Assembly (NCBI GenBank): GCA_026129465.1
Contig: JAHCIA010000001.1
Span: forward strand, 1,063,964-1,127,963
DNA: 64,000 nucleotides
Source of the DNA: Flavobacteriales bacterium
GTDB lineage: Bacteria > Bacteroidota > Bacteroidia > Flavobacteriales_F > PHOS-HE28
Reading direction: 5' to 3'
The translations under genes were made by a program, and so were the position numbers. This document shows positions 60,123-64,000 of this stretch, one piece after another. Position 1 is the first letter of the stretch. Each line of letters opens with the position of its first letter. Under the pieces are notes generated by a model. It worked only from the letters and a program-made list of their open reading frames with translations. It was not told where the DNA came from and did not search any database.

Positions 60123-60851
60123 CTATCGCCGTGCCTCCAATTCCCGGTCGATCATCTCCATCAGCTTCGTGATGCGCTTCTCGGTGGTGCCATACATCTT
60201 CACCATCCATTCCCGTATGAACAGGTTGGTGCGCAGCGCTCCCTGGAAGGTCCGGTCATCCATCAAGGCGACCGCGTCATAGGGTTGGCCGCTCACCCAC
60301 ATGGTATCCACCAGCACCTTGGCGTGTACTTGCGGAAGAATATGGTCCATCTGGATCCTTCCATCCGCCTCGAACTCAAGGTTCTTCAAGTAGTCGTAGC
60401 GCTCCGAGTAGAGTGCGGTCATCTTGCGGCGCAGGCTATCGTTGCGGATCAGGTCGATCCCGATGCTCTTCAGATTGTCGTATGCCGAGGTGTTGGCCGT
60501 GAGCGTGGTGCTCCCGAACAGGTTGGCGTAGTGCACACGCAGGGAATCGTGGAAAGGCGTGCGCTCGGTCAGGTGCTTCAACACGGCGCGGTTGCCGCGT
60601 TCATAGCGCTGGTTCGCCTCGATGTTGTAGCGACAGTCCTTCAGGTCCATCGCCAGGTTCTCCCGCATCTCGGCCAATAGCCCCAGCTCCTGCTGATCGC
60701 GCTTGCGTTCCGCGTTCCAGTTGTTCAGCTGCAGGGCCAGGAAGATCCCGATCACCACCAGCAGGATCTCGCCCACGGCGTAGGTGAGGTAGCGTGTGAT
60801 GCGGCCTTGGGCCAGCAGGCTTTGGCGGATGGAGCGGAAGAAGCGGATCAT
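60123..60851 (-). CDS. DUF6090 membrane protein, copy 1 (subfamily A)
   Basis: A 242-residue protein. Basic N-terminus (FFRSIRQSLLAQGRITRYLTY), then a single transmembrane helix with the conserved GEILLVVIGIFLALQLNNWN motif (about residues 27-46), then an ectodomain of about 195 residues. The ectodomain is helix-rich, with LLAEMRENLAMDLKDCRYNI, TSAYDNLKSIGIDLIRNDSLR and LYSERYDYLKNLE. The family's function is unknown. Its start overlaps the stop of copy 2 by 4 nt (ATGA), so the array is cotranscribed leftward. Copies 1, 2 and 4 share the ectodomain type. Confidence 0.87.
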   Translation of the reverse strand: MIRFFRSIRQSLLAQGRITRYLTYAVGEILLVVIGIFLALQLNNWNAERKRDQQELGLLAEMRENLAMDLKDCRYNIEANQRYERGNRAVLKHLTERTPFHDSLRVHYANLFGSTTLTANTSAYDNLKSIGIDLIRNDSLRRKMTALYSERYDYLKNLEFEADGRIQMDHILPQVHAKVLVDTMWVSGQPYDAVALMDDRTFQGALRTNLFIREWMVKMYGTTEKRITKLMEMIDRELEARR

Positions 60852-61579
60852 TTGCGGCGCTGTTCAAGTTCCTTGTCGATCTGTGCGATGAGCTCCTGGA
60901 CCTGTTGCTCGACGCCTTCATATATCGTTACCATGAAGCCCTTGTTGAACTTGTTCATGCGCAGCACGCCCTTGAACTTGTTGTCGTTCATCAAGGCGTC
61001 CACATCGACCGGATACGCGTTCTTCCACATGGTATCCATCACCACCTTCTCATAAAGCTGCGACCCCATGTCCACCTTTTGGAGGTGGAAGTCCTGTTCG
61101 ATCTCGATCATCGCCACGAACCGGTAGCGTTCGGAGTACAGGCGTGTGATGGCACTGCGCAGGCTGTCGTTGCGGATCAGGTCGAAGCCGATGCTCTTCA
61201 GGTTGTCGTAGGCCGACGTATTCATGGTGAGCATGGTGGAACCCATCAGGTTGCCATAGTGGATACGCAACGAATCGTGAAAGGGAGTACGCTCCTCCAG
61301 GTGTTTCAGGACCACCTCTTGTGCTCGTCCCAATCGCATCTGCGTGATGATGTTGTCGCGGCAATCCTCCAGGTCTCGTAGCAGGTTCTCCCGCATCTCG
61401 ATCAGCAGCGCCAGCTCCTGCTCGCTGCGCTTCCGCTCGGCGTTCCAGTTGTTCAGCTGCAGGGCCAGGAAGATACCGATCACCACCAGCAGGATCTCGC
61501 CCACGGCGTAGGTGAGGTAACGCGTAAAGCGCCCCTGGGCCAGCAGGCTTTGGCGGATGGAGCGGAAGAATTTGATCAT
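60848..61579 (-). CDS. DUF6090 membrane protein, copy 2 (subfamily A)
   Basis: A 243-residue protein, the closest relative of copy 1: the first 46 residues differ at only a few positions, and the ectodomain keeps LLIEMRENLLRDLEDCRDNI, TSAYDNLKSIGFDLIRNDSLR and LYSERYRFVAMIE. The divergence is concentrated after residue 120. It overlaps copy 3 by ATGA at 61576-61579. A single transmembrane helix with an N-in/C-out topology is expected from the basic N-terminus. Confidence 0.87.
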   Translation of the reverse strand: MIKFFRSIRQSLLAQGRFTRYLTYAVGEILLVVIGIFLALQLNNWNAERKRSEQELALLIEMRENLLRDLEDCRDNIITQMRLGRAQEVVLKHLEERTPFHDSLRIHYGNLMGSTMLTMNTSAYDNLKSIGFDLIRNDSLRSAITRLYSERYRFVAMIEIEQDFHLQKVDMGSQLYEKVVMDTMWKNAYPVDVDALMNDNKFKGVLRMNKFNKGFMVTIYEGVEQQVQELIAQIDKELEQRRK

Positions 61580-62367
61580 GGCGCTTCGTGGATCTCCTTA
61601 TCGATGAGGGCGATGGTCCCTTCGATCTCGCGGACCATCTCCATGCAGTCCTGAAGCATCGCATTGTTGTTCAGGATCGCGAGCTTCAATCCGTTCTGGT
61701 AGGCCATGTCCTGCAGCAAGGTGGCCCATTGTTGACCCAGCGTGGCCAGTCGCGCTTCACTGTCCTCCACCTTCAAGGCCAACTTGTTGGTGGCGAGCGT
61801 ACGCTCCCAATCCAGAAATGGGACCTGTTCCACAAGTAACATCGCGCGGTCATAGAGGTACATGTCGTACTCCCGGCGCATGTGCGCGGTATGCACGGCC
61901 AGGCCCTCGTATCGCTGCGCCAGGTCGAGGACCCTGGTCTTGATGGAGTCGTTGGTGATGAAGCTGAGGTTGCCCGATCCGATCAACTCGTTCAGGGTCT
62001 TGGTGCTGGGCACGAAGGTCTTCCAGACGAACACGTTCCAGGACAGGGAGTCCACATAGCGGATCTCCGCCGCGCTTGTGGGTGGTGCCTGCTTGAGCAG
62101 GAGTGATCCGGAGGATGTCTTCCGCTCCTTGTCCGTGATGAACTCGGCCAGTTTGCCCAGATCCATCGCCAGGTCGGCCTTCAGTCCGTTGAGGTATTTC
62201 ACCTCGCGCGCCCGGTTGCCCCGTTCGTTGTTCCAGTTGTTGATCTGCAAGGCGATCAAGATCCCGATCACCACCAGCAGGATCTCGCCCACGGCATAGA
62301 GCAGGTAACGCGTGAGGCGGTTCTCCTTCAGGAGCCGCTGGCGGATGGCGTTGAAGATGCGGGGCAT
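61576..62367 (-). CDS. DUF6090 membrane protein, copy 3 (subfamily B)
   Basis: A 263-residue protein. The N-terminal segment (FNAIRQRLLKENRLTRYLLYAVGEILL) is of the same constant type as copies 4 and 5. The ectodomain differs from copies 1 and 2: NGLKADLAMDLGKLAEFITD, LNELIGSGNLSFITNDSIKTRVL and LAQRYEGLAVHTAHM. It is 12 nt after copy 4 and overlaps copy 2. The central segment GNLSFITNDSIK still aligns with SIGIDLIRNDSLR of subfamily A. Confidence 0.87.
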   Translation of the reverse strand: MPRIFNAIRQRLLKENRLTRYLLYAVGEILLVVIGILIALQINNWNNERGNRAREVKYLNGLKADLAMDLGKLAEFITDKERKTSSGSLLLKQAPPTSAAEIRYVDSLSWNVFVWKTFVPSTKTLNELIGSGNLSFITNDSIKTRVLDLAQRYEGLAVHTAHMRREYDMYLYDRAMLLVEQVPFLDWERTLATNKLALKVEDSEARLATLGQQWATLLQDMAYQNGLKLAILNNNAMLQDCMEMVREIEGTIALIDKEIHEAP

Positions 62368-62379
62368 GGTGTGGTTCGT

Positions 62380-63117
62380 TCACATTCGGTCTTCAAGGCG
62401 CTTCACGTGCGCGTCGAGCATTTCCAGGATGGACGTGATCTCGCCCTCGATCATCTCGTACTGCCCTTGCATGTATCGGCGGATGAAGAGGTTCATCTTT
62501 AGCACCTCTTGGAACTTCCGGTCATCCATGAGCCGCTCATGGTCCACAGGCATGGCCGCCTTCCACAAGGCTTCCATGTTCAGGTGTTCCAATACTTGCG
62601 GATAGACATGGTCCCATTGATAGCCATCATCCAATCCTTTCTCGACATTCTCCACGTAAGCGTACTTCGTGGAGTACAGAGCTGATATGGCATTGCGGAG
62701 GCTGTCATCGGAGATCAGGTCGATGCCCACGGACTTCAGGTTCTCCCAAGCGGCGGTATTCTCGCTGATCTGGTAGTTGCCCAGGATGTTCCCGAAGTGA
62801 TGTTTCAGACTGTCGTCCAGTGCAGCCCTGTCCTGAAGGGCTTTCAGGACGGATTCGTTGGCGCGGATCCGTTCCTTGTTCCCAGTGACATTGTAACGCA
62901 CATCCTGCAGGTCGGTCGTCAGGTTCTTCTGCATTTCCTGGAGCAGCGCCAGCTCCTTGCCGCGGGTTTTCTTCTCCGCACTGGCGTTGTTGATGCTCAA
63001 CGCGATGAGGATGCCGATCACCACCAGCAGGATCTCGCCCACGGCATAGACCAGGTAACGCGTGAGGCGGTTCTCCTTCAGGAGCCGCTGGCGGATGGCG
63101 TTGAAGATGCGAGGCAT
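62380..63117 (-). CDS. DUF6090 membrane protein, copy 4 (subfamily A ectodomain)
   Basis: A 245-residue protein whose N-terminus is nearly identical to copy 3 (FNAIRQRLLKENRLTRYLVYAVGEILL) but whose ectodomain belongs to the copy 1/2 type: LLQEMQKNLTTDLQDVRYNV, NTAAWENLKSVGIDLISDDSLR and LYSTKYAYVENVE. This is a chimeric combination, constant region of one group with the ectodomain of the other. A GTCCCGTAGGGAC palindrome begins 13 nt upstream of its start, in the spacer to copy 5. Confidence 0.87.
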   Translation of the reverse strand: MPRIFNAIRQRLLKENRLTRYLVYAVGEILLVVIGILIALSINNASAEKKTRGKELALLQEMQKNLTTDLQDVRYNVTGNKERIRANESVLKALQDRAALDDSLKHHFGNILGNYQISENTAAWENLKSVGIDLISDDSLRNAISALYSTKYAYVENVEKGLDDGYQWDHVYPQVLEHLNMEALWKAAMPVDHERLMDDRKFQEVLKMNLFIRRYMQGQYEMIEGEITSILEMLDAHVKRLEDRM

Positions 63118-63130
63118 GGAGGTGTTCTAA

Positions 63131-63143
63131 GTCCCGTAGGGAC
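63131..63143. repeat. GTCCCGTAGGGAC palindrome, copy 1
   Basis: A 13-bp palindrome (GTCCC-GTA-GGGAC) in the spacer between DUF6090 copies 4 and 5. It recurs at 63182-63194 and is followed each time by GACATG or GGCATG. Confidence 0.65.
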
Positions 63144-63181
63144 GACATGTGGTTAGAGCTTCAGAACTGACCGTCCGATCG

Positions 63182-63194
63182 GTCCCGTAGGGAC
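63182..63194. repeat. GTCCCGTAGGGAC palindrome, copy 2
   Basis: The same 13-bp palindrome 51 nt further right, with the same flanking CATG. No gene is present between the two. Confidence 0.65.
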
Positions 63195-63252
63195 GGCATG
63201 GGGGTGGCATCAGCATTCGGTGGAGGATGGTGGTGAAGATGCATGCCATGGG

Positions 63253-64000
63253 TCATCTGTTCAATTGCGCATCGATCCGGGCCAACGCTTGTTCAGTTGA
63301 AAGTACCATGTCCTGCAAAAGCGCGATGATGCCTTGTCCGTTGATCACGCAGAGGGAGAAGCCGTTCTTGTAGGCCCGGTCCGATAGCAGCAGCGCGATC
63401 ACTTCCGGTGCCATGGGCGTCGTGCCGGTTCGATCGCCCGCTGTTGCCATGGCGAGATAGGTCTTGAAGGTCTGTCCGATATCACCGATGCGGAAGAATG
63501 TGCTGTAGAGATATTCCTCATAGTCGTGGCGGATGTGATCCTGGAAGAAATCGATGCGGTCGTACCCGAGTTCCATACGCAGCAGCTCGTTCTTGAGGCT
63601 GTCATCCGCAAGAAGTCCCAAGTTGCCCGAGCTGATCAGTTCCTTCATCGTGCTGTTGTTGCGATGGAAGGGTTCCCTGTAGAGGACATTTATCGTATGG
63701 TAGCTGAACGAATCCGGGGAGAGCTCGTGCCTCCTCTCGAAACAGTCGATCATGATCGACGCTGAACGGACGGCGGTACTGTACATGTCGATGCTCCGCT
63801 CCAGTTCCGTGATGTTCAGACGCAGGTCCGAACGGAGACCGTGCAAGAAGACCTTTTCCCGTGCCTTCGTATGCTGCGACTCACGGTAGTTGTTCACCTG
63901 CAAGGCGATCAGGATCCCGATCACCACCAGCAGGATCTCGCCCACGGCATAGACGAGGTAGCGGGTAAGGCGGTTCTCCTTCAGGAGCCGCTGGCGGATG
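63253..64000 (-). CDS. DUF6090 membrane protein, copy 5 (subfamily B), 5' partial
   Basis: The frame runs past the right edge of the window, so the start is missing; about 248 residues are visible. The N-terminal part reads RLLKENRLTRYLVYAVGEILLVVIGILIALQVNNY, the same constant segment in the same frame. The ectodomain is subfamily B-like (MKELISSGNLGLLADDSLKNELLRME) with a distinctive FLHGLRSDLRLNITELERSID helix. It is 135 nt from copy 4, with the palindrome pair between them. More copies may continue beyond the window. Confidence 0.85.
   Translation of the reverse strand, partial: IRQRLLKENRLTRYLVYAVGEILLVVIGILIALQVNNYRESQHTKAREKVFLHGLRSDLRLNITELERSIDMYSTAVRSASIMIDCFERRHELSPDSFSYHTINVLYREPFHRNNSTMKELISSGNLGLLADDSLKNELLRMELGYDRIDFFQDHIRHDYEEYLYSTFFRIGDIGQTFKTYLAMATAGDRTGTTPMAPEVIALLLSDRAYKNGFSLCVINGQGIIALLQDMVLSTEQALARIDAQLNR

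Follow-up and report, generated by a model that had tools for sequence, protein, structure and literature searches.

The 64,000 nucleotides analysed here (in the following, the window; positions 1,063,964 to 1,127,963 of contig JAHCIA010000001.1 from a Flavobacteriales metagenome-assembled genome, MAG) end on the right inside a tandem array of DUF6090 genes, whose products combine an almost constant N-terminal segment of basic leader and transmembrane helix, the anchor, with a divergent ectodomain. The two parts have decoupled histories: anchors are homogenised locally among the copies of a genome, and ectodomains are under purifying selection and have been transferred across bacterial families. 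It is very probable that anchor and ectodomain have evolved as separate modules. The best explanation as a whole, to which we assign a probability of roughly 50%, is that the array would be a repertoire of type II inner-membrane proteins, each built from a cytoplasmic leader with positive charge, a single transmembrane helix and a four-helix bundle in the periplasm, and that the ectodomains would be conserved, horizontally exchanged cassettes that take over a resident anchor on arrival.

After extension of the contig beyond the window, the array was found to consist of six minus-strand genes transcribed in the order a6 to a1. The first-pass annotation of the window had reported a tandem array of at least five genes; the same-strand open reading frames were found where it had placed them, and the copy number is six rather than five, since extension to the right, as it had suggested, yielded one more copy, after which the array stops. 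The genes are a1 (60123..60851; 242 amino acids, ectodomain type A), a2 (60848..61579; 243 amino acids, type A; AlphaFold model m316f117c5865), a3 (61576..62367; 263 amino acids, type B; AlphaFold model m888c6d1263a7), a4 (62380..63117; 245 amino acids), which is a mosaic of a type A ectodomain and an anchor of the a3/a5/a6 type, a5 (63253..64000 in the window, the full gene reaching to 64020; 255 amino acids, type B) and a6 (L009:6128-6868, equivalent to window positions 64164-64904), which lies 144 nt past a5. The open reading frame coordinates bear out the 4-nt ATGA overlaps of a2 with a1 and of a3 with a2 and the 12-nt gap between a4 and a3; the spacers preceding a5 and a4 are about 140 nt each. 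Cotranscription of at least four genes, as proposed earlier, is likely: among DUF6090 neighbours less than 1 kb apart in 43 genomes, 178 of 178 pairs lie on the same strand, with overlaps of only 1, 4 or 8 nt. No terminator was found within the array, and the promoter and terminator scans gave no more matches than chance. The Rfam scan of the array region was without a match, and the predicted RNA fold of the spacers was not more stable than that of shuffled sequences.

All six proteins score above the gathering cut-off of the DUF6090 profile PF19578 (23.5 bits) with 26.6-50.2 bits (E 3.6e-13 to 6e-6), the match beginning at the conserved Gly-Glu of the transmembrane helix. They differ from what is recorded for the family in that the Pfam entry is without a function and that neither arrays nor anchor exchange nor ectodomain cassettes were found described in the open-access literature; our search of it turned up neither a mention of DUF6090 by name nor comparable arrays in Bacteroidota.

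The annotation had proposed a constant anchor with a variable outer part. Among 115 proteins the mean pair identity was 0.81 at residues 21-40 versus 0.08-0.23 per 20-residue block of the ectodomain (approximate values, as highly divergent ectodomains align poorly), so that anchor and ectodomain are far from equally conserved. A transmembrane core GEIxLVxxGIxxA is present, with G27, E28, G35, I36, A39 and N43 near-invariant. The contrast thus goes far beyond chance; what has to be amended is that the ectodomains are not hypervariable and that the anchor is not merely constrained, as it also recombines. The division of the ectodomains into type A (a1, a2, a4) and type B (a3, a5) holds: the type A ectodomains share 41-57% identity, the two of type B 26%, and A versus B only 14-19%, while the ectodomain of a6 adds a third type. 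Profile comparison shows A and B to be homologous (hhalign probability 96%, E 1.4e-9, 189 columns), so that they are divergent subtypes, two among many, of one fold.

That the anchor is constant has in our reading two causes. Between genera the identity of the transmembrane core (0.81-0.85) is close to that within genomes (0.81-0.87), and most anchor pairs of genome G321, which has the largest set of copies (see below), are near saturation at silent sites (0.45 versus 0.42 expected). This rules out gene conversion as the sole cause, and the protein sequence of the anchor is held by purifying selection. Superimposed is a signal at the DNA level. In the genome of the window the anchors of a3 to a6 agree at 80-93% of their silent sites versus about 50% expected, and their ectodomains are without such an excess; in comparison with the species of the L049 MAG, the silent-site agreement is 0.80 for the a3 anchor and 0.51 for syntenic neighbour genes. 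DNA identity starts at the start codon and ends near codon 44. The anchor segment of a2 (61448..61579) is 92% identical to that of a1 (60720..60851; codons 1-44, comprising basic leader and transmembrane helix), and the segment of a3 (62236..62367) is 92-93% identical to those of a4, a5 (63889..64000 in the window, continuing to 64020) and a6, with 93% for a4 (62986..63117), including an identical run of 60 nt. The ectodomain data strongly reject a grouping of a4 with a3, a5 and a6.

A more general test was based on 319 genes from 43 genomes, of which G321 was sampled nearly completely and several others only partly. In 12 of 14 genomes, adjacent genes had more silent anchor sites in common than the gene pairs of that genome overall (Stouffer z 6.05, p 7e-10, related ectodomains removed), the effect being strongest in G439 and G321. 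Adjacent ectodomains in G321 are scarcely more similar than random ones (0.253 versus 0.233). Regional or per-gene codon usage was tested as a source of the signal and does not explain the excess. The excess of silent-site identity, which is the mark of gene conversion, thus belongs to the anchor and not to the ectodomain and is strongest between neighbours, and anchors are exchanged among resident copies, mostly adjacent ones.

The separate histories of anchor and ectodomain are most directly seen when genera are compared. There are 26 independent groups of ectodomains related across genera, with a mean identity of 55%. The anchors paired with them are no more alike than the mean of the respective genome pairs (0.667 versus 0.664, Wilcoxon p 1.0) and are less alike than the anchors within their own genomes (mean 0.740, p 5e-4). 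In the same-genus control the anchors do track the ectodomain (0.90 versus 0.74; +0.166, p 6e-4). In G293 and G586, which belong to different families, a pair of ectodomains is about 92% identical in DNA, whereas the identity drops to 0.50-0.58 within the first 72 nt; the anchor in G586 is 90% identical to that of the immediately neighbouring gene. The same pattern was found for G483 and G436, the G436 anchor being 92% identical to its neighbour's, and between G427 and G436 a single short differing tract lies inside an otherwise near-identical gene. Conversely, two genes of G394 at distant loci on different contigs (L064 and L063) share 93% identity limited to the stretch from the ATG to codon 48. 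Draft genomes such as these may contain chimeric assemblies, although the estimates for G293 and G586 are 99-100% completeness and 0% contamination. Decoupling, adjacency and the cross-family cases together show an anchor that recombines between copies and ectodomains that are conserved, transferred cassettes, travelling between genomes and even across families.

A simpler account would be ordinary tandem duplication with relaxed ectodomains, in which the anchor is the sole constrained part and nothing is exchanged. The equal conservation of the transmembrane segment within and between genera (0.81-0.87) and the near-saturated silent anchor sites among most G321 copies speak for it, and duplication does occur: the genome of the window contains elsewhere a single copy (L011) and, at 2.08 Mb, a second tandem array of three (L010), whose first two copies, b1 and b2 (L010:4424-5913), adjoin each other and are 100% identical, having arisen by a very recent tandem duplication. 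However, the ectodomain dN/dS (ratio of non-synonymous to synonymous substitution rates) was 0.14-0.60 where silent sites allow its measurement, which points to purifying selection, and in eight multi-copy genomes the closest ectodomain was found in another genus for 99 of 158 genes and in the own genome for only 53. Together with the decoupling and adjacency tests and the 92% identical ectodomain on different anchors in two families, this makes relaxed duplication very improbable, and we consider it already disfavoured. Positive selection on the ectodomains was also considered and found no support, dN/dS being below 1, though silent sites are often saturated. Each type of ectodomain rather seems to stand for one conserved specificity, and an array to assemble a set of them.

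In 200 DUF6090 proteins, residues 1-26 carry a mean net charge of +5.5 and are followed by a single transmembrane helix and about 200 acidic, cysteine-poor residues; a second transmembrane stretch was found in 0 of the 200. Because of the charge bias of the leader (positive-inside rule), the C-terminal part is inferred to be periplasmic. A role in surface adhesion, one of those entertained in the first-pass annotation, or as a surface antigen fits poorly with a type II anchor in the inner membrane. AlphaFold models for both ectodomain types, a3 for type B (predicted local distance difference test, pLDDT, 83) and a2 for type A (pLDDT 86), agree on the fold: one very long continuous helix is predicted to span the membrane and to run into an up-and-down four-helix bundle. 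Conservation decreases with height in the bundle, from 0.24 at the base to 0.12 in the upper part (Spearman -0.38, p 7e-8; -0.38 also without helix 1), the height above the membrane being assigned from helix topology and approximate for the most divergent ectodomains.

The best natural structure matches include the ligand-binding domains of the chemoreceptors and sensor kinases Tar, Tsr, PcaY, MCP2201, NarQ and QseE, with Z of 8-9.5. The DUF6090 proteins could for this reason be truncated sensors, in which a ligand bound at the bundle moves the long first helix and the leader relays the signal to a partner in the cytoplasm or the membrane. The predicted continuous helix from the membrane into the bundle and the strongly conserved leader would suit such a mechanism, as would the likeness to the four-helix-bundle domains of Tar/Tsr, NarQ and PcaY, in which likewise an N-terminal transmembrane helix runs into a periplasmic bundle of similar size. 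The DUF6090 proteins differ from these receptors in having neither the second transmembrane helix nor a cytoplasmic output domain nor a detectable sequence relation to them; no HAMP, MCP signalling or kinase domain was found by Pfam in the proteins examined, and the leader comprises only some 25 residues. In addition, matches between helical bundles are not diagnostic at Z below 13, so that values of 8-9.5 may reflect merely a common arrangement. Foldseek gave no match to either model at E <= 0.001, and the sequence search against solved structures gave nothing significant. We therefore consider signalling by truncated sensors to be quite improbable.

A binding role fits better. Some DUF6090 proteins carry C-terminal modules, namely ankyrin repeats (two genomes), TPR (one), DUF3471 (one) or a weak SusE/F-like match (two); those with ankyrin, DUF3471 or TPR modules are encoded at L154:4512-5687, L155:3931-5100, L156:3582-4613 and L065:3975-5102. 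These modules suit a display or binding scaffold. Apparent fusions in proteins of about 1000 amino acids (G048, G052) turned out to be spurious, the matches sitting in peptidase-like genes.

When 396 genomes of the window's own class were searched with a profile built on the N-terminal 60 residues, 46 were found to carry DUF6090, 23 with a single copy and 23 with several. A set of 296 genomes of the phylum showed it in other classes as well, the copy number reaching 21 or more per genome in family f88. The family is thus not mostly single and scattered, even though half of the carriers have one copy, and in this respect the annotation's view of an array-forming family was borne out. The extreme is G321, a 4.1-Mb genome in a single contig, with 84 copies of about 0.75 kb each, making up about 2% of its coding capacity; 36 of these share a strand and a stretch of about 32 kb, with only three other genes interspersed. 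Inverted silent copies, a feature of shufflons and phase-variable cassettes, were absent among the 178 close neighbour pairs.

This distribution is also what would be expected of an immunity or exclusion repertoire, in which each ectodomain neutralises one periplasm-acting toxin or blocks the entry of one phage's DNA, the common anchor holds it at the inner membrane, and cassettes spread because of the protection they confer. Presence is patchy even in the genus of the window (6 of 39 mostly same-genus relatives), large arrays are lineage-specific, cassettes pass between families, the ectodomain specificities appear stable under purifying selection, and the anchor is of a type that faces the periplasm. 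On the other hand, the proteins gave no NCBIfam match and no credible PADLOC match: PADLOC found a weak similarity to PtuB (E 0.0019) in part of a1 only and none in four other array proteins. No toxin gene was recognised beside the inspected arrays (the loci were read; no systematic toxin scan), the neighbours being ordinary enzymes, FeoB, hydrolases and similar proteins; phage and plasmid records contained no DUF6090 match, and ankyrin, TPR and DUF3471 additions are atypical of immunity proteins. We regard protection as an unlikely function, though less so than signalling.

A repertoire for binding different envelope or periplasmic ligands, as receptors or adaptors, is the function that we tentatively put first, though at somewhat less than even odds, because of the common constrained anchor, the conserved base and variable distal half of the bundle, the conserved ectodomain types and the optional binding modules. 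In the mechanism that we propose, the membrane-proximal base of the bundle is conserved and the distal half varies. The leader-plus-transmembrane segment of about 130 nt is kept both by purifying selection on the protein, most plausibly because every copy meets the same membrane partner, which is inferred, or oligomerises through the anchor, and by recombination, mostly between neighbours, which homogenises the anchor DNA and above all the leader. More tentatively still, the anchor could serve at once as the docking part for one shared partner and as the homology handle that captures incoming cassettes, in which case one genome could display dozens of specificities by way of a single interface.

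Several points weigh against this interpretation. Most of the distant G321 anchor pairs are saturated at silent sites, and purifying selection rather than conversion is therefore behind most of the deep conservation of the anchor. Taken one by one, 4 of the 14 genomes show a significant adjacency effect. The 132-nt anchor is too short for tree comparison by approximately unbiased (AU) tests, which rejected neither grouping of a4. The four-helix match is within the range expected of a common arrangement, and the many single-copy genomes indicate that a repertoire is not obligatory.

If the interpretation is correct, a widespread Bacteroidota family would be a modular display system open to decoding: the invariant anchor could serve as bait for the common partner, and the 26 ectodomain groups that span genera could be examined as stable specificities. 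The family would offer a clean natural case for telling constraint on the protein sequence and recombination among paralogues apart at each site, and it would exemplify horizontal transfer at the level of the domain rather than the gene. The coding share of about 2% in G321 suggests a strong selective benefit, so far undescribed.

In principle, the combination of a conserved segment homogenised by recombination with a variable functional domain is known, and the DUF6090 family is a variant of that kind. The bab/hop genes of Helicobacter and the opa genes of Neisseria encode paralogous surface proteins whose ends are conserved and whose middles vary, with gene conversion among the paralogues. 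The likeness lies in the segment homogenised by recombination of paralogues next to a variable functional domain. In contrast to these outer-membrane proteins, those of the DUF6090 family have a type II anchor in the inner membrane and a conserved part at the N-terminus only, and their ectodomains, instead of varying antigenically, are ancient and conserved. Polymorphic toxins and orphan immunity arrays exchange C-terminal cassettes; with them DUF6090 shares the constant N-terminal part, the gain of C-terminal cassettes by recombination and the tandem arrays, but no toxin domain, secretion apparatus or toxin-immunity pairing was recognised in the loci inspected. We know of no other inner-membrane, Bacteroidota-wide example of such modular families.

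There are also one-transmembrane-helix families only distantly related to DUF6090, with a different anchor (e.g., GIIASILVAFAIENWDEE) and a similar helical ectodomain (L157:4240-5031, L159:4068-4913, L060:8579-9346). Some of their genes sit inside DUF6090 arrays, and all may be part of a larger superfamily.

Near the anchors there are possible traces of mobile elements. A pair of GTCCCTACGGGAC palindromes (63131..63194, minus strand; 63131-63143 and 63182-63194), resembling repetitive extragenic palindromic (REP) elements, precedes a4, the nearer one being 13 nt from the start codon. The whole 3.9-Mb genome contains exactly four copies of the 13-nt GTCCCTACGGGAC, arranged in two pairs with a spacing of 51-52 nt; both pairs lie 13 nt ahead of a DUF6090 start codon, the second one (L009:5997-6062) preceding a5. 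In G010, G648 and G019, exact copies are likewise confined to the DUF6090 locus, with one copy 12-14 nt upstream of the start codon. In appearance the palindromes are REP elements belonging to an IS200-like (Y1) transposase: two palindrome copies directly upstream of DUF6090 in G010 and G648 have a frame-broken Y1 transposase gene between them, and G183, which is without DUF6090, has 22 copies in clusters, one of them beside an intact Y1 gene adjoining feoB (loci L066:4208-4821, L191:2408-3021 and L187:1768-2963). A feoB gene is near DUF6090 also in G010, G648 and the L049 MAG. An element of this kind could conceivably take part in moving the anchor head.

The spacer between a5 and a4 contains in addition a degenerate, truncated anchor start of about 13 codons (63210..63251, minus strand), which matches the start of the anchor at 76%. 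The a6/a5 spacer (L009:6079-6120) contains a homologous remnant, and another is present in L068 upstream of 8090. Gene a5 and the G019 gene have in common a block of about 300 nt, composed of remnant, REP pair and anchor, that precedes unrelated ectodomains and probably marks the spread of a head module between species. In the arrays of G137, the anchors of two copies (L058:14990-15100 and L058:10974-11080) contain LPAGKAG or LPTGKVG as an in-frame addition, which comes from a palindromic insert, CCTGCCTGCCGGCAAGGCAGG, and from a diverged version of it.

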